DNA from: Bacillota bacterium
Lineage (GTDB): Bacteria > Bacillota > DSM-12270 > Thermacetogeniales > Thermacetogeniaceae
Length of the DNA stretch: 64,000 bases
Reading direction: 5' to 3'
NCBI GenBank assembly: GCA_029907475.1
Contig: JARYLU010000002.1
Coordinates: forward strand, 1 to 64,000
Below the pieces are notes generated by a model. The model worked only from the letters and a program-made list of their open reading frames with translations. It ran no database searches and had not been told where the DNA came from. The translations under genes and the position numbers were made by a program. Positions 50,479-59,333 of the stretch are shown in pieces (positions within the stretch are counted from its first letter, which is position 1; the number at the start of each line of letters is the position of its first letter).

Positions 50479-51065
50479 ATGATTATAATTTTCGAGGAGG
50501 GACATGACTTGGAGGAGTGCTTAAGAGAAAGTCAGGAGCATCGGGAGGAAGCTTTGTTGGAAAAGGATAACAGGGAGCTAGAGGCTTCTAATCGGCAGGC
50601 TTTGCTGAGATCGCTTGCTACGATGAACCTGGCTTATATAGCTCCTTACTTATCCCTGGCGCGGGTGGCGGACAAAGAGGTAAGCGTAGGGGCAACAGTG
50701 ACCGTACAGGTCCGGGAGGTGGATATTTTGCCACGAGAGAGTTACATCGTTGTTCGCATGTGCACTTCCACGGGTATAGATGCTTTGAAGTGCAAAAAGA
50801 ACATCGAAAATGTATTGTACACTTTCCGGAACCTCTCCAGTCAGGTTTTGAGCCCTTTGTATGCATAAGTAGAACTGGTGAATATCAGGAGGTGTTCGCC
50901 TACTCCAATGATGGAGAGTTTTTGGTTGAGAAGATAAGCGGTGACGACGAAACTGTATTACGAGAAGCGAAGAAAATGGCCGCCGAGAAGGAAATGCGTT
51001 CACTGGCACGGTTTGTGGACCTGATGGAGCAGGCGGTGAAGGGAGTAAGTGAATTTTTAGTTTAG
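50479..51065 (+). pseudogene. unknown protein gene, apparently frameshifted
   Basis: Two overlapping frames seem to be one gene. 50479-50868 starts with an acidic coiled-coil-like region (ECLRESQEHREEALLEKDN) and continues through VADKEVSVGATVTVQVREV to ILPRESYIVV. From about 50755 the other frame (to 51065) continues more sensibly: HVHFHGYRCFEVQKE, then FVCISRTGEYQEVFAYSNDGE and a helical C-terminus. A single-base indel near 50750-50760 would join them into a protein of about 195 residues. I do not recognise a family. It lies between transposase scraps and the candidate precursor peptide. Confidence 0.45.
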
Positions 51066-51071
51066 GGGCTA

Positions 51072-51245
51072 ATGAGAGTAAGGTGGTCTCCGCCCGACCG
51101 GCTCATCCTTAAACGGCTCAGCAGGGGAAAGATCCACCTTACCCTCGGTGACTATTATACGCGCGAGGGGAGTGACTTTCAATGGAGGCCACCTTCCTCT
51201 GAAATCCAGGAGAGGAAGGAGGTGAACCGCTGTGAGGGAATTTGA
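51072..51245 (+). CDS. possible small protein upstream of the candidate precursor
   Basis: An open frame of 57 codons, MRVRWSPPDRLILKRLSRGK to NRCEGI. It is basic and has no strong ribosome site. It overlaps the next start by 14 bp, so it could be a leader or simply chance. No family recognised. Confidence 0.3.
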   Translation: MRVRWSPPDRLILKRLSRGKIHLTLGDYYTREGSDFQWRPPSSEIQERKEVNRCEGI

Positions 51246-51459
51246 ACTTGACCGCTCGGTTGATGCTGTAGCGATAGAGGCGAGTAATTCATCGTCTGAT
51301 GGCGAGGTAAGGCCTCTGGTACTCTACACTCCATTCGTTGTTACACCGCTTGTTGCCTACAATGTAGTTGCGGTTGTTCATACAGCTGCTGCCGCTGTTA
51401 CGGCTGCGCTATGGGCCGGGGTTACAACAAAAACATATTTGTATGGGGGTAACCGGTAG
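51232..51459 (+). CDS. candidate precursor peptide (RiPP-like) of 75 residues
   Basis: A small protein with a hydrophilic N-terminal half (MREFELDRSVDAVAIEASNS up to about residue 28) and a very hydrophobic C-terminal half rich in Val, Ala and Thr, ending TTKTYLYGGNR. This leader/core-like division, the strong ribosome site AAGGAGGTG, and nearby radical SAM and ABC exporter genes make a modified peptide precursor plausible. It has no Cys, so thioether sactipeptide rings are excluded. Epimerised or carbon-carbon cross-linked residues would be possible. I do not recognise a named family; a small membrane protein is the alternative. Confidence 0.5.
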   Translation: MREFELDRSVDAVAIEASNSSSDGEVRPLVLYTPFVVTPLVAYNVVAVVHTAAAAVTAALWAGVTTKTYLYGGNR

Positions 51460-51558
51460 GGGTCATGTCTCCAGTTGATAATAAGTTGCAGTAAAGGCAT
51501 ATTCAGTAAAGGTAATTACAACGCATGTGAGTAATAAGTAATAATTGAGTAATAAGGA

Positions 51559-51594
51559 GGAGGTCGGGGAGTGTACAGAATGTTCCCCGGCCTC
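51559..51594 (+). other. 12-bp hairpin between the peptide gene and the PH-domain gene
   Basis: GGAGGTCGGGGA (51559-51570) pairs with TCCCCGGCCTCC (51583-51594), with one G-U pair and a 12-nt loop. No T-run follows, so it is not a normal terminator. It may act as a processing or stability stem that lets the short peptide message outnumber the downstream genes. Confidence 0.6.
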
Positions 51595-51617
51595 CCCACT
51601 AGTGAGGTGGCAAATCT

Positions 51618-52151
51618 TTGAGTGGGACTAGAGTTTTTAAAACAGCTCCGTACGATGTTTTCGTGAAAATTTCGACGTATGGACTCGGCCCTGTTCTCGT
51701 GGGGCTTGCTATAGGCTGGGCAGCCATAAAAAAACAAGACTGGGATCTTCCTTTAATACTTGGTGGAACATTACTAATCATCAATATTCTCGTCTATATC
51801 TTTTCTGCAGTACGTAAATATATAGTCAATGCGGAGCGGTTAGTTATCAAGAAACCAATAGGATCGTTTTCTATCCCTTACAGCCAGATTGCTACTGTGG
51901 AAGTTGTGAATAGTGTAAACGTAGGCTTTAAGGCTTGTGCGAATGCCGGGCTTTTCGGTTATTTCGGATTGTTTTTTGTTGTGGATGATAACGATACGGT
52001 AAGGATTTATGCAACAAATCTTAAACGAATGGCTCAGATTAAGACTACCGATGGCAAAAAAATATACCTTTCTCCGGCCGAACCAGAAAAGTTTGTCGAA
52101 GCGGTGAAGCGGCATTTAAGCCAAGACTGTCAGGGAGGAGAAAAATCATGA
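51618..52151 (+). CDS. membrane protein with bacterial PH-like domain
   Basis: A 177-residue protein with two membrane segments (about 20-36 and 44-63) and a C-terminal PH-like domain of the bPH_5 type: ANAGLFGYFGLFFVV, then KTTDGKKIYLSPAEPEKFVEAV. Such domains are common in membrane proteins linked to bacteriocin or transport loci, but the ligand is unknown. TTG start with GAGGTGG upstream. Its stop overlaps the start of the radical SAM remnant (ATGA). Confidence 0.65.
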   Translation: MSGTRVFKTAPYDVFVKISTYGLGPVLVGLAIGWAAIKKQDWDLPLILGGTLLIINILVYIFSAVRKYIVNAERLVIKKPIGSFSIPYSQIATVEVVNSVNVGFKACANAGLFGYFGLFFVVDDNDTVRIYATNLKRMAQIKTTDGKKIYLSPAEPEKFVEAVKRHLSQDCQGGEKS

Positions 52152-52562
52152 TTCCGCAGGTTCTGGCTTTTATTACGACGTATAGGTGCAACTTCTCGTG
52201 CGATCATTGCTCAGTCTCTGCCGGGCCGGATCGCCGGGAAGTGCTGGCGGCAGACGTTATGCGGCGGGCCATAGAACAAGCTTACGCTCTGCCGTCCATC
52301 CGGGTGATAGTCTTTGGCTTCCGGGGCATCCCTGCCCGAAATTGTCGGGCGGATGCAGAGAAACGTGTTTTACTGGTGGCTGCATCTTGAAGGGCCGGAA
52401 GCAGTGCTGGCCGAACTGGGAGTGGAAAAGAAATTCTACCGGGGGTGCGAAGCTTGCTTTTACCTGGGCACGGCCTACCAGGAGAAGTTGCGTGCTTTAG
52501 CTGAAAGGAAAGAGGAAATTTTCGCGCGGTGGGAGGTGAAAAAAGTTGGCTTACCAGCTTAG
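52148..52562 (+). pseudogene. radical SAM peptide-maturase-like gene, internally deleted
   Basis: The first frame has a perfect radical SAM cluster motif, C14-NFS-C18-DH-C21, within ITTYRCNFSCDHC, and is open for about 56 residues to VIVFG, where FTGGEP would be expected. The sequence then jumps into another frame (from about 52314) that reads LPEIVGRMQRNVFYWW, later RGCEACFYLG, and ends KKVGLPA at 52562. This looks like the C-terminal part of the same enzyme, with an auxiliary CxxC. About 200 central residues are missing. A strong GGGAGGAG precedes the ATG. It is probably a dead maturase. Confidence 0.7.
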
Positions 52563-53106
52563 CTTCTGGGAGGTAATTAAAGCCTTCTTCGTGCCGGTAG
52601 ATCCCGTTTTTTATCTTTTTCTCGCAATTTTATTAGCAGGCGTCGGTATTCCTGTCGGTTCCCTACTGTACGCGTTAAGAAAAGGAGTGCCTTTTCGAAA
52701 GCTACTCCTTATGCCTGTGACAGTTATGGTTGTGCTGGCAGTTATACCGGTCATGAGTCTGCTTTACACCGGTTCGGGGTGGCGCTTGGAAAATGGAAAG
52801 TTGCAGATGAAAGCTACCCCGGGAGCTCTGGAGTCCGTAGAACTGAAAAAAGCACGGGTTACTCTGGTGGAGAGTACCGGGCCCTGGCAGGCAACTCTGC
52901 GCACAAACGGGATTGGTCTCTCTGGTTTTTCTGCCGGCCGGTTTAAATTTAAAAACGGCAAAGAGGCGCTTTATTTCCGGTATGTCGAGTCGCCCCATAA
53001 GGTAGTGCTGGAGTCTGATGGTCGCTACTACGTGCTGTCGTATCCCGGTGTAGAAGAGCTCTATTGGGAACTTATAGCCCGGGGCGCGCGGCCGGCAGAA
53101 CTGTGA
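52546..53106 (+). CDS. membrane protein with second PH-like domain
   Basis: A 186-residue protein: two membrane segments (about 22-43 and 51-72), then a soluble domain with WRLENGKLQMKATPG and RTNGIGLSGFSAGRFKF, the latter resembling bPH_5 domains. It partly parallels the gene two places upstream. TTG start 52546 after GGGAGGTG, overlapping the end of the radical SAM remnant by 17 bp. Function unknown; the context suggests a part in export or immunity. Confidence 0.6.
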   Translation: MAYQLSFWEVIKAFFVPVDPVFYLFLAILLAGVGIPVGSLLYALRKGVPFRKLLLMPVTVMVVLAVIPVMSLLYTGSGWRLENGKLQMKATPGALESVELKKARVTLVESTGPWQATLRTNGIGLSGFSAGRFKFKNGKEALYFRYVESPHKVVLESDGRYYVLSYPGVEELYWELIARGARPAEL

Positions 53107-53149
53107 TTTCGATCCACGAACTACAATTAAATTTAAGGAGTTTGAACTT

Positions 53150-54952
53150 ATGTGGAAGGATCTAGTCGCTTTGTGGAAGCTGACGAAAATCTACCTGAAG
53201 GGCAAGGCAGGCGCGATTCTTCTAGGTCTCTTTACCAGTATCATCTTTTCGCTGACCGGTCTTGCTACTCCTTACATAACCAGGTTTTTGATTGATGTTA
53301 TTTTTCACGCCAATCGCGGGGATTTGCTTTTGCCGTTGCTGATCATCTGTGGGATCATCCTCATCATCCTGTTCTTTACAGGGCTTATTTCGGACTACGT
53401 TCTGGTTAACGCTTTCGAGCGAGCTAAGTTGTTAATGCGGCACGACCTTTTTAGGCGATTGCAAAAAGCATCGGTAGATTTCCTGTCAATGCAGCGAAGC
53501 GGGGAGCTGAATTATCGCATCTTCGGGGACACGGAGGCCATACAGAGGTTCTTTAACCAGTTACTTATCGTACTACCCATTGACTTGCTCTTTATTGTCG
53601 TCATTTCCTCTATTATGATTAACTGGAATTTGCGCATGGCGCTTTTTGTGTTTACCGTGTTGTGTTTGCAGGTGCTCGTGATTATTGGGTTTCAAAAACC
53701 CTTGTTGACCTACGCCCTACTTCAGAAAGGTAAGGCACAATTTTTGTCCGGTTTCGTGGTTGAGAGGTTTAGGAACATTCAGCTTACCAGAACATTAAAT
53801 GCCGAGGCGGTGGAGGTAGGTTGCTTTAAGTCATGTCTGGAAGAACTGATGGGTATCAACGTCAGGGCGTTTATGCTCGGCAAGTTTTCGGAGCTATCCG
53901 TATTGCTGGTCAACAACATCTGGTCTTTCGGGATTTTATGGTACGGGGGAATGTTGGTATTAGCAGGGCAAATCACTTTGGGGACGCTTATGGCATTTTT
54001 ACTCATCGCAGGGATGCTTTATCCTCGTATAGCCTTTGTTGTTGGTGGTGTACTTTCTTTCCAGGACGTGCGTGCCAGTCTATACCGGTTTTTGGAGTAC
54101 CATCAAGTGATGCCGGCGGTACACGAGCCTCCGGAAGCGGTCGGACTATCATTGAAGAAAGGCAGGGTGGTTTTCGAGAACGTCTGGTTCGGATATACAC
54201 CTGAAGAGCCGGTTTTAAAAGGGTTATGTGTTACTTTCGAGCCGCGAAAAATCACCGCGGTGGTTGGAAAAAGTGGAGTCGGTAAGAGCACGCTGGCACG
54301 ATTACTGGTAAGGCTTTACGATCCCTGGGAGGGGATGATTCTGATCGACGGGATTGACATAAGACGGGTCACGTTAGAGTCCTTGCGGGTTAATGTTAGG
54401 TACGTTGTCCAGGGGGAGTTCCTTTTTAGCGGTACTATCTGGGATAACATCTGCTATGGGGTGGGTTCCTGCAGTGAGGAAGAGGTTATTGCTGCTACCA
54501 GGAGGGCCAAAGCGTACGATTTTATCATACAACTGCCTCGGGGGTTCTATACCCGGATCGGAGAAGGGGGGCTCCAATTATCTAGCGGCGAAGCCCAGCG
54601 CATAGCCCTTGCCAGGTTGTTTTTGGCCAATCCTAAAATAGTTGTCCTGGATGAACCCACCTCCTTCTTAGATCTGGAAACGGAAAGTGCCATACATCAG
54701 GCGATCATGGATCTTAAGAAAACTGCCACCGTTATCGTGATTGCGCATCGGCCGTCCACCGTCAAGATAGCCGATCAGGTATTTGTGCTGAGTAACGGCA
54801 TAGTTGTCGAACAGGGAACGCATGACGAGTTGCTTAGCAAGAGAGAGATGTATGCAACCATTTACACCGAGCTGTGCCTTCGGGAAACTGGTTTACCGGA
54901 AAAGAGCGAAGCAGGTTCTCCAGCGGCTAAAGGAGCGGGACAATGGACCTGA
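53150..54952 (+). CDS. ABC exporter (fused membrane and ATPase domains)
   Basis: A 600-residue type IV ABC half-transporter. The membrane domain has six helices (residues about 20-300). The ATPase domain has Walker A GKSGVGKS at 373-380, signature LSSGEAQR near 493 and Walker B VVLDEPTS near 516, followed by D-loop and H-loop His (IAHR). There is no N-terminal C39 peptidase, so a leader would need another protease. By context it exports the candidate peptide, or lipids. ATG start after AAGGAG. Confidence 0.85.
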   Translation: MWKDLVALWKLTKIYLKGKAGAILLGLFTSIIFSLTGLATPYITRFLIDVIFHANRGDLLLPLLIICGIILIILFFTGLISDYVLVNAFERAKLLMRHDLFRRLQKASVDFLSMQRSGELNYRIFGDTEAIQRFFNQLLIVLPIDLLFIVVISSIMINWNLRMALFVFTVLCLQVLVIIGFQKPLLTYALLQKGKAQFLSGFVVERFRNIQLTRTLNAEAVEVGCFKSCLEELMGINVRAFMLGKFSELSVLLVNNIWSFGILWYGGMLVLAGQITLGTLMAFLLIAGMLYPRIAFVVGGVLSFQDVRASLYRFLEYHQVMPAVHEPPEAVGLSLKKGRVVFENVWFGYTPEEPVLKGLCVTFEPRKITAVVGKSGVGKSTLARLLVRLYDPWEGMILIDGIDIRRVTLESLRVNVRYVVQGEFLFSGTIWDNICYGVGSCSEEEVIAATRRAKAYDFIIQLPRGFYTRIGEGGLQLSSGEAQRIALARLFLANPKIVVLDEPTSFLDLETESAIHQAIMDLKKTATVIVIAHRPSTVKIADQVFVLSNGIVVEQGTHDELLSKREMYATIYTELCLRETGLPEKSEAGSPAAKGAGQWT

Positions 54953-55281
54953 AGACATTACTTTACATTTTCTTGCTGACTGCCGTTATCATTGGGGGAG
55001 GAGTGCTTTTAATACCATTTCGCTCGCCCGCCGGTTTTCTGGGCTGGCTTTTCCTGACGGCAGGAGGGTTGTTTCTCCTGGTCAGGTGGCATGCCCGAAA
55101 TACTGCCTACATCTGCCCAAAATGCGGCCATTTCTTCATGATTTCAGCGATGGAAGACTTTTTGAGTCCCCACATGATCGATCAAAAACTTCTCAAATGC
55201 CCGAAGTGCGGGAAGAGGTCCTGGTGCCAGGCTGTCAGCGCAAAAGCGCGAAGCTTGAGAAACGCTTCAAAAGATGACTGA
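54943..55281 (+). CDS. small membrane protein with zinc ribbon
   Basis: A 112-residue protein with two membrane segments (about 5-24 and 30-48) and a cytoplasmic zinc ribbon made of CPKCGH and CPKCGK (CxxC pairs at about 58-61 and 86-89). It overlaps the ABC exporter gene by 10 bp. No known function; possibly an accessory or immunity component of the exporter. Confidence 0.65.
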   Translation: MDLKTLLYIFLLTAVIIGGGVLLIPFRSPAGFLGWLFLTAGGLFLLVRWHARNTAYICPKCGHFFMISAMEDFLSPHMIDQKLLKCPKCGKRSWCQAVSAKARSLRNASKDD

Positions 55282-55480: not shown

Positions 55481-56185
55481 TTGGAAGCAAAGGAGCAACG
55501 GGGAATGTGGCGGTGTTTGCTGGGGGTACTGACAACCCCTGGGAGGGCTTTTGAGGAGATCGCCGAACGGCCCGATTTCCTCAAATCGGCTTTTTTTATT
55601 TGCGGGGCAAGTTTGCTGCTGGCGCTGGCGCTGCTGCCCAAGGCTCAGACCGCGGCTATTTGGATGCTTGAGCAGAATTCAATGCAAATACCACCAGAGC
55701 AGGTGGAGATGCTGCTTCCGATTATGCCCATAGTAACAGCAGTAGGGAGTATTGTTTCTGCCCTGGTTGCTCCCTGGATAACCTGGCTTTTGATTGCCTG
55801 CTTGCTGAAGGTTTACTCTTTAGTGAGCACCAAAAGCGCGTCCTTCAAGGTGTTTTTCGCGGCCTCCGTTTTTGGCTACCTTCCCATACTGATTGGCGGA
55901 GTGATCACCACGGCAATCGGGACCGCCGTTCCGGTGGAAAATTTTCAGCAGGTAAGCCTCAGCCTTGCCTCTTTTCTTCCCCAGCAGAAGGGTTTCCTTT
56001 ACATTTTCCTAGGGAGTTGCAACCCCTTTACCTGGTGGAGCCTCATCCTCTGGGGAGCGGGTGGAGCGGCTGCAATGAAAACCCGGTCCTGGGTCCCAAC
56101 TGCATATCTTTTTGGATGTTGGGCGATTTACGCCGTACTTGTATCTTTACTGACTTTTTGGAAGGCGCCTACTGGCATAGGCTAA
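55481..56185 (+). CDS. Yip1-domain membrane protein
   Basis: A 234-residue protein with about five membrane segments. The beginning, LLGVLTTPGRAFEEIAERPD, is the typical opening of bacterial Yip1-family proteins, which often accompany MacAB-like exporters. TTG start after GAAGGGAGAGAGGG. It is followed after 18 bp by the adaptor gene, so it probably opens the export operon. Confidence 0.8.
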   Translation: MEAKEQRGMWRCLLGVLTTPGRAFEEIAERPDFLKSAFFICGASLLLALALLPKAQTAAIWMLEQNSMQIPPEQVEMLLPIMPIVTAVGSIVSALVAPWITWLLIACLLKVYSLVSTKSASFKVFFAASVFGYLPILIGGVITTAIGTAVPVENFQQVSLSLASFLPQQKGFLYIFLGSCNPFTWWSLILWGAGGAAAMKTRSWVPTAYLFGCWAIYAVLVSLLTFWKAPTGIG

Positions 56186-56203: not shown

Positions 56204-57457
56204 GTGCGAGGAGCTAAACTCTGGATTACGGTAGCTGGTGCCATCTTGATCGTGGCTGTGGTTGCGGGCAGCATTGTCCGGGGGTTCAGCAGGTCAACGG
56301 TGGAGGTAAGAACGGCTGAGGCAACTATGCGGCTCTTTGAGGACAAGGCGCTGGCCACCGGCAGGGTGGAGGCTACCCGCGAGGTGGATCTGGCTGCACC
56401 CTTTGCGGCACAACTTTTAAAATTAAACGTACGAGAGGGTGACCATGTTTCCCCCGGGCAGGTGCTTGGCGAGTTGGATATAAAAGATGCCGAAAAACGG
56501 GTAAAGGAAGCCGAGACGGCGCTTGCCGTAGCGGAAGCCGAACTGGCGGCTGCAAGCGCCCCGGCCACACCGGAAGAACTGGCGGAGACCGAGGCAGCGC
56601 TGAAAGCGGCTGAGGTACTGGTCGAAGCTGCCCGCAGTAAGGCGGAACGCACCCGCTATTTGTTTGACCAGGGCGCGGTGTCTCAAGTTGAACTCGAAGC
56701 AGCTGAAACCGAGGAAGCGCGCGCCCGGGCAGAACTGGAGGCAGCCGCAGCACGCTTTGCGACGCTCAAGAAGCCTGATCCCAGAAAGATCAAAACACTT
56801 CAGGCGCGCGTCGAACAGGCCCGCGTTGCTTTAAACAATGCCTGCCAGACTGTAGCCGATGGCTGCCTGACTGCCCCTGTTGCTGGTGTGGTACTGGAAG
56901 TAGTTGCTCGAGAGGGAGGCTTTCTGCAACCCGGCGCTATAATTTTAACTATTGGAAGCGCAGATCAGGTCCAGATTATAACAAATCTCAATGAACAGGA
57001 TATTGGCGGCATCGCTACCGGACAGGAGACAGAGATCCAATGGGCCGGAAGGCCCGGGGAAACCTGGCAGGGGAAAGTGGCGCGGATTGCGCCCGCTGTT
57101 ACAAAAAGCAGGGAGCGGGAAATGGAGCATGTTGTTCGAGTCTGCATAGAGTTTGATCAAAAATCAAAAGGGCCCCTGCCCCTGCCAGGGGCGACGGTAG
57201 ACGTATTTATCTACCGCGTTAAACCAAGAGAGGCTCTTTTAGTACCCAACGAAGCGGTGATCGAAGAAGGAAAGAAGAAATATGTATTTAATGTAGAGAA
57301 AAAAGTTGCCCGCAAGCTTACGGTCACGGTGGGTGTTGGTAACGAACTCTTCACCGAAATCAAGTCCGGGCTCAAGCCGGGGGATCGGGTGATCCTGAAT
57401 CCGAAAGACCTCGAAGACGGCCAACCGGTACGTGCAGCCGGTGGTGAACGAATATGA
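56204..57457 (+). CDS. HlyD/MacA-type membrane-fusion (adaptor) protein
   Basis: A 417-residue adaptor: N-terminal membrane anchor (about 6-24), split lipoyl domain (VDLAAPFAAQLLKLNVREGD and the matching GVVLEVVAREGGF), a long alanine- and glutamate-rich coiled coil (about 87-205), and a C-terminal beta-barrel with VPNEAVIEEGKKKYVF. It links a MacB-type ABC pump to the outside. GTG start after AAAGGAG. It overlaps the ATPase gene by 4 bp. Confidence 0.88.
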   Translation: MRGAKLWITVAGAILIVAVVAGSIVRGFSRSTVEVRTAEATMRLFEDKALATGRVEATREVDLAAPFAAQLLKLNVREGDHVSPGQVLGELDIKDAEKRVKEAETALAVAEAELAAASAPATPEELAETEAALKAAEVLVEAARSKAERTRYLFDQGAVSQVELEAAETEEARARAELEAAAARFATLKKPDPRKIKTLQARVEQARVALNNACQTVADGCLTAPVAGVVLEVVAREGGFLQPGAIILTIGSADQVQIITNLNEQDIGGIATGQETEIQWAGRPGETWQGKVARIAPAVTKSREREMEHVVRVCIEFDQKSKGPLPLPGATVDVFIYRVKPREALLVPNEAVIEEGKKKYVFNVEKKVARKLTVTVGVGNELFTEIKSGLKPGDRVILNPKDLEDGQPVRAAGGERI

Positions 57458-58131
57458 TTAAAGTCATCGGGCTGACCAAGGTTTACGGAAGCGGGCCGGC
57501 AGCAGTGACCGCCCTGGATAACGTAACCCTGGAAATTGGAACCGGGGAATTCGTAGCAGTCATGGGGCCCTCAGGTTCCGGCAAATCAACTTTTTTGAGC
57601 ATCTTGGGCGGCATCGAGCGGCCTACAGCGGGTCAATATTACCTTGACGACCACGATGTATGCGCTTTAGATGAAGATGAAATTGCACACTTGCGCAACT
57701 ATCGGCTTGGTTTTGTCTTTCAAACCTTTAATCTCCTTCCACGCTATGACGTTATACGTAACACCGAGTTACCTCTGTTATATGCGAATGTTGGGCGTAA
57801 AGAGCGCCGGGCGCGGGCGGAAGCCCTGCTTACGCGGGTGGGGCTGACGCACCGCCTGCAACACAAACCACCTGCCCTTTCCGGCGGGGAGCAGCAGCGG
57901 GTCGCGATTGCGCGCGCTCTTGTTAATGATCCCGCCGTAATCCTGGCCGATGAGCCCACCGGTAACCTGGATACCCGTTCAAGTCACGAGATCATGAAGA
58001 TTTTCAGAGAATTACACGAAGAAGGAAGGACCATTGTTCTGGTTACCCACGAACCGGACATTGCCTGCTACGCCGGTCGCATTTTGCGCTTCCTGGACGG
58101 AGCGGTAGTTGGGGAGGATGGTAAAGCGTGA
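57454..58131 (+). CDS. MacB/LolD-type ABC transporter ATPase
   Basis: A 225-residue ATPase of the MacB/LolD/FtsE class. Walker A GPSGSGKS lies near residue 38, signature LSGGEQQR and Walker [13 protein letters not shown] follow, then VTHEPDIA with the H-loop His. It starts within the stop of the adaptor gene and overlaps the permease gene by 4 bp. Together they form a mechanotransmission-type exporter. Confidence 0.92.
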
Positions 58132-59333
58132 AGTTTATCGACCTCGCTCTCCTGGTCTGTGAAAGCCTTACCGTTCAACGCCTGCGGGCAGTACTTACGA
58201 TCTTGGGAATCACCATTGGAATCGCAGCGGTTATCGCTGTTGTTGCTATTGGGCAAGGTGGTAAGACCGCTATCCTTTCCGAAATCGAAAAACTTGGGAG
58301 TAGTTGTTATTTTGAAATCAGCGTGGACTACGCCCGCGGGGAAGCGCCTACGAGTGACACCTTTAACCTTCAAGATGCCCTCTTGATCCAGGCCCTTTCT
58401 CCTGCTGTAGAAAAGATAGCTCCGGTCAGTTCAGGCGCGATGATTGACATTCGCAAGCCTCACGCCGGGGGAAAACCTATTTTATCCCAACTTATCGGAA
58501 CAACACATGATTTCAGCGCAGCTCAAAATCTTACCTTGCAGGCAGGACGCTTTTTGTCTCCCGCCGACATTTCGGCCCATGCCCGCGTCGTGGTGCTGGA
58601 TGCGGCTCTGGCAGATGAAATTTTTCCCCGCTCCGATCCCCTGGGAAAGGTAGTTTTTATTAAAGATATCCCGGCCCTGGTGGTCGGTATCGTGAAGATG
58701 CCTGAGTCATCACTGTTAGGGATGATGAAACTGAGGTACGCCTATGTACCCCTGACATTCGCGCACGATATTTTGAATTCCCGCGTCATCCACCAGCTTT
58801 CCGGCGTGGCGGTTTCTAAAGAGGCTGTTCCTCAAGCCATCGAGGACAGCTTAACAATTCTCAAGAAAAGGCATCCCCGAACAGATATCAACTACCGTGG
58901 CACCTCAATGGAAGAAAGTCTCGCGATGGTGGAAAAGGTTACCTCAGTGATGACCCTGATCATTGGAGCGGTTGCAGCAATTGCCCTCGTGGTAGGAGGC
59001 GTAGGGGTAATGAATATCATGCTGGTTGCGGTAACCGAACGAACGCGGGAAATCGGGATCTTAATGGCACTTGGCGCCCGCCGCCGCGACATCCTCCAGC
59101 AGTTTCTCTTTGAAGCGGTTATCCTCTGTCTGATAGGGGGTGCCTGCGGCATCCTTCTCGGCGCGGGCGGTGCCCTGGTAATCGCTTATTTTGCCCACTG
59201 GCCGCCGCTTATTTCCTTCTGGACGGTGCTGATGGCTTTCGCTTTTTCTGCTCTGATAGGACTCTTTTTCGGCCTTTACCCTGCCAGCCGGGCCGCTTCC
59301 CTAAGTCCTGCCGAGGCGCTGCGGCATCTCTAA
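58128..59333 (+). CDS. MacB/FtsX-type ABC transporter permease
   Basis: A 401-residue permease: one N-terminal membrane helix (about 20-42), a large extracytoplasmic MacB-PCD domain, and three C-terminal helices, with GVGVMNIMLVAVTERTREIG and the end SLSPAEALRHL typical of the family. The last 35 bp (59295-59329) recur as an imperfect copy at 62732-62766. It is probably the last gene of the Yip1-adaptor-ATPase-permease operon. Confidence 0.92.
   Translation: MKFIDLALLVCESLTVQRLRAVLTILGITIGIAAVIAVVAIGQGGKTAILSEIEKLGSSCYFEISVDYARGEAPTSDTFNLQDALLIQALSPAVEKIAPVSSGAMIDIRKPHAGGKPILSQLIGTTHDFSAAQNLTLQAGRFLSPADISAHARVVVLDAALADEIFPRSDPLGKVVFIKDIPALVVGIVKMPESSLLGMMKLRYAYVPLTFAHDILNSRVIHQLSGVAVSKEAVPQAIEDSLTILKKRHPRTDINYRGTSMEESLAMVEKVTSVMTLIIGAVAAIALVVGGVGVMNIMLVAVTERTREIGILMALGARRRDILQQFLFEAVILCLIGGACGILLGAGGALVIAYFAHWPPLISFWTVLMAFAFSALIGLFFGLYPASRAASLSPAEALRHL
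59295..59329 (+). repeat. 35-bp imperfect direct repeat, copy 1
   Basis: The 3' coding end of the permease gene. 33 of 35 bases match copy 2 at 62732-62766, 3.4 kb downstream. Confidence 0.85.

Follow-up and report, generated by a model that had tools for sequence, protein, structure and literature searches.

A probable decayed operon for an epimerase-type radical SAM bacteriocin, with predicted PH-domain immunity, in a Bacillota genome

The window analysed here, a stretch of 64,000 nucleotides from a Bacillota genome (assembly GCA_029907475.1, contig JARYLU010000002.1, positions 1 to 64,000), carries on its forward strand a short gene for a hydrophobic peptide, preceded by a gene that we call orfA and followed by the remnant of a radical S-adenosylmethionine (SAM) enzyme gene between two genes for membrane proteins of the pleckstrin homology (PH) kind, PH1 and PH2. 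By comparison with related genomes (given below as G-numbers, the genome of the window being G000), we read this locus as probably a decayed copy of an operon family for bacteriocins that are ribosomally synthesised and post-translationally modified peptides (RiPPs), with an epimerase-type maturase and immunity of the PH-domain and SDP type. The claim at the level of the family, namely that these operons encode undescribed epimerase-type RiPP bacteriocins, is well supported by this comparison, while epimerisation, export, killing, immunity and RNA switching are predictions. No earlier description of the family was found in the open-licence papers searched, and it is apparently new.

The peptide gene (51232–51459) has a GTG start, a strong ribosome-binding site ahead and 75 codons, none of them for Cys. 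Comparison indicates that it is a genuine gene and not a chance open reading frame (ORF), since homologues share its place in eight other genomes. The one in G011, of the same family, is 88% identical and accompanied by a full-length radical SAM gene; the further related loci are in G286, G452, G370, G404, G179, G403 and G330. The nine precursors have the motifs MR-x-FE-[LI] and VDA in common and then diverge, with residues 1–19 (the leader; the leader-like half in the window is MREFELDRSVDAVAIEASN) showing a mean pairwise identity of 74% and the remainder (the core) one of 33%. Past position 20, V, I, A or L make up 42–57% of the residues, and Cys occurs in none of the nine. A conserved leader and a variable core, here with a radical SAM gene as adjacent modifying enzyme in the operon of the relatives, are a hallmark of RiPPs. 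An earlier note on this DNA, made from the sequence alone, had suggested a RiPP-like locus unlike sactipeptide systems, and had named alignment of the peptide to an ordinary small membrane protein family as one outcome that would count against it. The latter was dropped, as the peptide matches no family in Pfam, NCBIfam or PHROGs, and sactipeptides and ranthipeptides are excluded by the lack of Cys donors in all nine cores. Plasmids and viral contigs gave no hit for the peptide.

The radical SAM gene of the window (52148–52562) keeps the codons for residues 1–56 and 246–328 of a 328-residue protein, in different frames. Residues 57–245 are missing, corresponding to approximately 0.56 kb relative to G011, and the gene was thus rightly called a remnant before. 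In relatives it is full length (328–336 residues), and it stands beside the peptide in G011, G286, G452, G370 and G404; the intact set that the earlier note thought possible in relatives does exist, and the co-occurrence that it proposed to look for is seen in these five genomes. In a sample of 398 genomes from this phylum, six genomes were hit strongly by the profile of the peptide and seven by that of the maturase family, with both in five (P ~1.5e-9, an exact value to be taken as a guide only, since the profiles were built partly from those same genomes). Radical SAM relatives on plasmids are distant (≤37%), and none was found in phages.

The best relative of the intact enzyme in the PDB is YydG/EpeE (8ai6, residues 1–294, profile E = 2.3e-22), matched over its whole length with the CxxxCxxC motif and the second cluster Cys in place, and the best NCBIfam match is YydG (TIGR04078, 90.7 bits). 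Residues C14, C18, C21, C211, C229, C291 and C294 are invariant in the maturase family. The likewise invariant Cys230, the second Cys of a conserved CCGH motif, aligns with Cys223 of EpeE, a numbering which, as for Asp210 below, we infer from the chain offset in the alignment and from the D210 mutant of EpeE. Cys223 is the proposed hydrogen donor of EpeE (PMC8326336). Because its best relatives are YydG/EpeE and Cys230 aligns with the hydrogen-donor Cys, epimerisation is the most likely reaction of the intact maturase, which lends weight to the guess previously made on the grounds that the peptide has no Cys.

Both PH-like membrane proteins described in the earlier note are upheld. PH1 (51618–52151) is a bPH_5 membrane protein above the Pfam cut-off (E = 3.9e-20). 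PH2 (52546–53106) falls under that cut-off when searched alone; however, bPH_5 matches were obtained for six of its eight family members (best 2.1e-5), and its AlphaFold model shows two membrane-length helices, a domain rich in strands and a helix at the C terminus. A fold search with the PH2 model gave no match at E ≤ 0.001, with PH-domain chains among the weak hits only.

What the PH proteins may do is best seen from two species pairs. First, orfA, the radical SAM gene, PH2, the exporter and the pump genes are 97–99.7% identical between G286 and G452, with differences below 3%, whereas DNA identity drops to 58% for the core and 59% for PH1; the breakpoints of this swap fall just past the leader and in the late part of PH1. 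Second, G370 and G404 share 95% identity in the leader and 27% in the core. In G370, the PH1 copy next to the peptide is new (30%), while an older PH1 is still kept (86%), together with a PH1 remnant. Because both pairs replaced core and PH1 together, PH1 would have to match the core, most simply as immunity, and we consider a cognate immunity (or specificity) protein its most likely role. The row in G370 (L016 1788–3157), with two intact PH1 genes and the remnant between peptide and maturase, is like a series of successive immunity gene gains.

An alternative that we judge unlikely, yet worth weighing with care, is that the PH proteins are partners in export or maturation, as proposed for DdE and DdF of the leaderless enterocin DD14. 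PH-domain proteins are required for export of that bacteriocin, the ddE and ddF deletion mutants having lost it (PMC8657885), and in the present operons the maturase gene lies between PH1 and PH2 and overlaps with them. However, a separate search with PH2 returned orphan PH2 genes or PH2-PH1 pairs. Such pairs stand without peptide or maturase in G309 (two copies, L067 6367–7417 and L068 6009–7059) and G499 (L065 445–1480), and possibly represent orphan immunity genes. PH1 and PH2 are also open in G454 although peptide and exporter are lost there. Furthermore, PH1 changes with the core while G370 keeps its older copy too, which suits immunity better than a common export step. As judged from these gene patterns, the PH proteins fit immunity or specificity better than a maturation role.

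Four genes downstream form a predicted self-protection pump of the YknWXYZ type: a YknW-like (Yip1) membrane protein (55481–56185; YknW_fam, 70.7 bits against a cut-off of 110), a YknX/MacA-like membrane fusion protein (56204–57457) and an ATP-binding cassette (ABC) ATPase resembling YknY and the MacB nucleotide-binding domain (57454–58131), and a YknZ-like, MacB-type permease (58128–59333). SdpI, a protection protein against the Bacillus toxin SDP, is encoded with SdpR next to peptide-PH1 in G330 and G403 and next to PH2-PH1 in G499. The YknWXYZ system is another such protection against SDP (PMC4887032). The SdpI gene of G403 is interrupted by an inserted ORF resembling a TnpB-type transposon protein (L069 3866–5978).

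These neighbours raise the question of whether the product is an SDP-like hydrophobic toxin, unmodified or carrying another bond made by the radical SAM enzyme, with protection of the SdpI/YknWXYZ type. Besides the adjoining SdpR-SdpI and YknWXYZ-type genes, three family members weakly resemble SdpC (TIGR04032, best E = 0.066), and the precursors of G330 (L082 8185–8400) and G403 (L069 7003–7215) are under purifying selection (ratio of nonsynonymous to synonymous substitution rates, dN/dS, 0.12). Those two loci lack maturase, adjacent PH2, exporter and RNA element, and have SdpR-SdpI and the YknWXYZ-type pump. On the other hand, the SdpC score of the window peptide, 10.2 bits, is far under the curated cut-off of 99.2 bits, and all complete loci have the maturase with the hydrogen-donor Cys of EpeE kept. 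We regard an SDP-like toxin as improbable. Signalling instead of killing, whereby a modified signal peptide would be handled by the YknWXYZ and PH proteins, is less probable still. SdpR-SdpI in Bacillus is also a sensing circuit, and killing by the peptide is a prediction; but the hydrophobic core, the two kinds of toxin-protection genes, the cassette-like diversification of the core and the resistance in non-producers are typical of bacteriocins.

Decay is a recurrent feature of the family. Broken maturase genes occur in the window and in G454, G470, G422, G309, G069 and G179, and since the breakpoints differ, comparison indicates that the maturase was lost repeatedly. Of these seven broken loci, every one has an open PH2, five have an open PH1 and four have open pump genes, while orfA, peptide and exporter are often lost. 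In G454, G470 and G422, PH2 and the pump genes are open (in G454 also PH1), with orfA, peptide and exporter mostly gone. The window has a deletion in the maturase gene and a frameshift in orfA, with the genes for peptide, exporter, PH1, PH2 and pump still open; for this reason its strain most probably makes no product but has retained resistance. That the deletion is an assembly error and the strain's maturase intact is very unlikely: the genome is a draft of 114 contigs and there is a short near-repeat (GATAGTCTTT / GATAGCTT) at the junction of the deletion, but neither a second copy nor the missing middle part of the maturase was found elsewhere in the genome, and independent, different deletions exist in other species.

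The approximately 164 nucleotides between orfA and the peptide gene (51067–51231) constitute a conserved RNA element in the 5′ untranslated region. In six loci, its mean column identity is 86%, which is above the conservation of the core, and compensatory changes occur in an outer 12-bp stem and an inner hairpin: out of 22 pairs, four have both sides changed. In a wider set this rises to 18 of the 22, with an alignment that had been adjusted to the model and contains a small number of weak matches. Two mutually exclusive structures are possible, as the 3′ arm (CCACCUUC) has a pairing partner both in the 5′ arm and in the ribosome-binding site (GGAAGGAGGUG), and the element may thus be a translational switch for the precursor. 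When single sequences were compared with shuffles, a clear excess of folding energy was seen only in G286 (z = −3.4), and the element matched nothing in Rfam. A second copy lies elsewhere in the genome of the window (L091 5426–5587, G000:C8), and two more, diverged and altered in the outer stem, are in G223 (L092 1562–1723 and 3603–3759). The G223 copies stand ahead of small secreted proteins, unrelated to the precursor, that adjoin a MacB/FtsX permease; an assignment of these proteins to Lactococcin-972 was dropped, as no Pfam match was obtained. Hits of the RNA model ahead of the EF-Ts gene in G133, and in G220 and G103, were judged chance or unrelated. A more far-reaching reading would see a new RiPP class, in which the PH proteins are core-specific immunity and an undescribed riboswitch-type RNA, controlling translation of the precursor and present also before unrelated small secreted proteins, brings one signal to several peptide systems. 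We put this forward as a tentative idea, on balance doubtful.

Compared with known systems, the operon appears to work like the epipeptide and the leaderless-enterocin clusters, yet by the tests made it belongs to neither. As in epeXEPAB/yydFGHIJ of Bacillus subtilis (PMC7026026, PMC8326336), a small precursor adjoins a YydG/EpeE-like radical SAM enzyme in which the hydrogen-donor Cys is kept, the core needs no Cys, ABC transporters are in the operon and action on membranes is expected. Unlike there, the precursor is longer and unrelated in sequence (the YydF-type model was not among the NCBIfam matches, E up to 1, of eight precursors), no adjacent YydH-type protease was found, and the operon has an MsbA-type exporter, orfA, two PH-like proteins, a YknWXYZ-type pump and an upstream RNA element. 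Since the enzyme also lies under the YydG equivalog cut-off, the precursor, the protease and the enzyme all place the operon outside the EpeX class. The enterocin DD14/L50-type clusters (ddABCDEFGHIJ; PMC8657885, PMC10598978) likewise combine two PH-domain membrane proteins and a four-part YknWXYZ-like ABC system with hydrophobic peptides. However, their peptides have no leader and the clusters no radical SAM enzyme, while the PH proteins here are bPH_5-like and one of them co-varies with the core; having a leader-like half and a modifying enzyme, the present peptide is not a leaderless bacteriocin. The SDP cannibalism toxin of Bacillus with SdpI and YknWXYZ (PMC4887032) shares the logic of a hydrophobic peptide toxin and the SdpR-SdpI and YknWXYZ-like genes, but here SdpA and SdpB were not seen, the similarity to SdpC is non-significant and a radical SAM maturase is present. 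Finally, proteusin epimerases of the PoyD type (PMC8326336) share the predicted reaction, in that they epimerise a peptide core by a radical SAM mechanism with a Cys hydrogen donor, whereas the present enzyme matches EpeE.

We therefore envisage the following scheme for the intact operon. Translation of the 68–76-residue precursor would be set by the RNA element, whose 3′ arm would either close the element or mask the ribosome-binding site. The EpeE-like enzyme would act on the hydrophobic Cys-free core behind the conserved leader, converting some L-Val/Ile to D residues by abstraction of the alpha-hydrogen and hydrogen return from Cys230. Export would be through the MsbA-type ABC exporter (53150–54952), possibly with the PH proteins; as had been described before, this exporter has ABC_membrane and ABC_tran domains and lacks a C39 peptidase domain. 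The product would target membranes of close relatives, PH1 would give core-specific immunity, and PH2 and the YknWXYZ-type pump, in some genomes with SdpR-SdpI, would add protection. If this holds, epimerase-type RiPPs are not confined to the EpeX family but extend to anaerobes of another phylum-level group, and nature has provided a swap experiment for PH-domain proteins, whose role in bacteriocin clusters (export or immunity) is debated. It would also supply a candidate RNA switch governing a bacteriocin precursor, and the loci that lost the maturase time and again while resistance was kept would be a clear example of resistant non-producers.

Several points weigh against this reading. The score of the enzyme against TIGR04078 falls short of the equivalog cut-off of 300 bits, Asp210 of EpeE aligns with Thr217 of the intact maturase, and no protease family that could account for leader removal scored above cut-off among the cluster proteins. 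The selection on the precursors of G330 and G403 where the maturase is lacking may reflect a role for the unmodified peptide, or a recent loss. PH1 adjoins the core, and the two could have been exchanged in a single recombination tract without being functionally linked. Retention of the PH genes is partly a search bias, as the decayed loci were found through a radical SAM fragment between PH1 and PH2. More generally, product, modification and activity of the family are predictions from its genes.

The remaining features concern the extent of the locus. All genes that had been named in the earlier note exist, but the unit is longer, with orfA upstream and the YknWXYZ-type genes downstream to 59333; the frameshifted orfA, the RNA element and the four genes from 55481 had not been named there. 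The product of orfA (50479–51065) has approximately 190 residues in relatives and is split here by a 1-nucleotide deletion, a single T in a T run (TTTT, versus TTTTT in G011). Outside such loci, its homologues were seen solely as fragments. It had no match in Pfam, NCBIfam, PHROGs or the PDB and its structure model no clear fold match, and assignments as a RiPP recognition element or a protease were dropped, neither sequence nor fold agreeing. The zinc-ribbon membrane protein (54943–55281), counted earlier as a member of the set, is present as an ORF but has no homologue at any of the related loci compared, and for this reason is probably outside the core system.

Two further radical SAM hits were set aside as other YydG-like systems. 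In G335 (L022 8490–11716), a 116-residue ORF accompanies a 340-residue radical SAM enzyme (TIGR04078, 122.8 bits, under the cut-off), an ABC ATPase and a permease, possibly a further epimerase-type peptide system. In G486 (L037 7617–9892), three radical SAM genes or gene parts lie in tandem, each 25–36% identical to the maturase.

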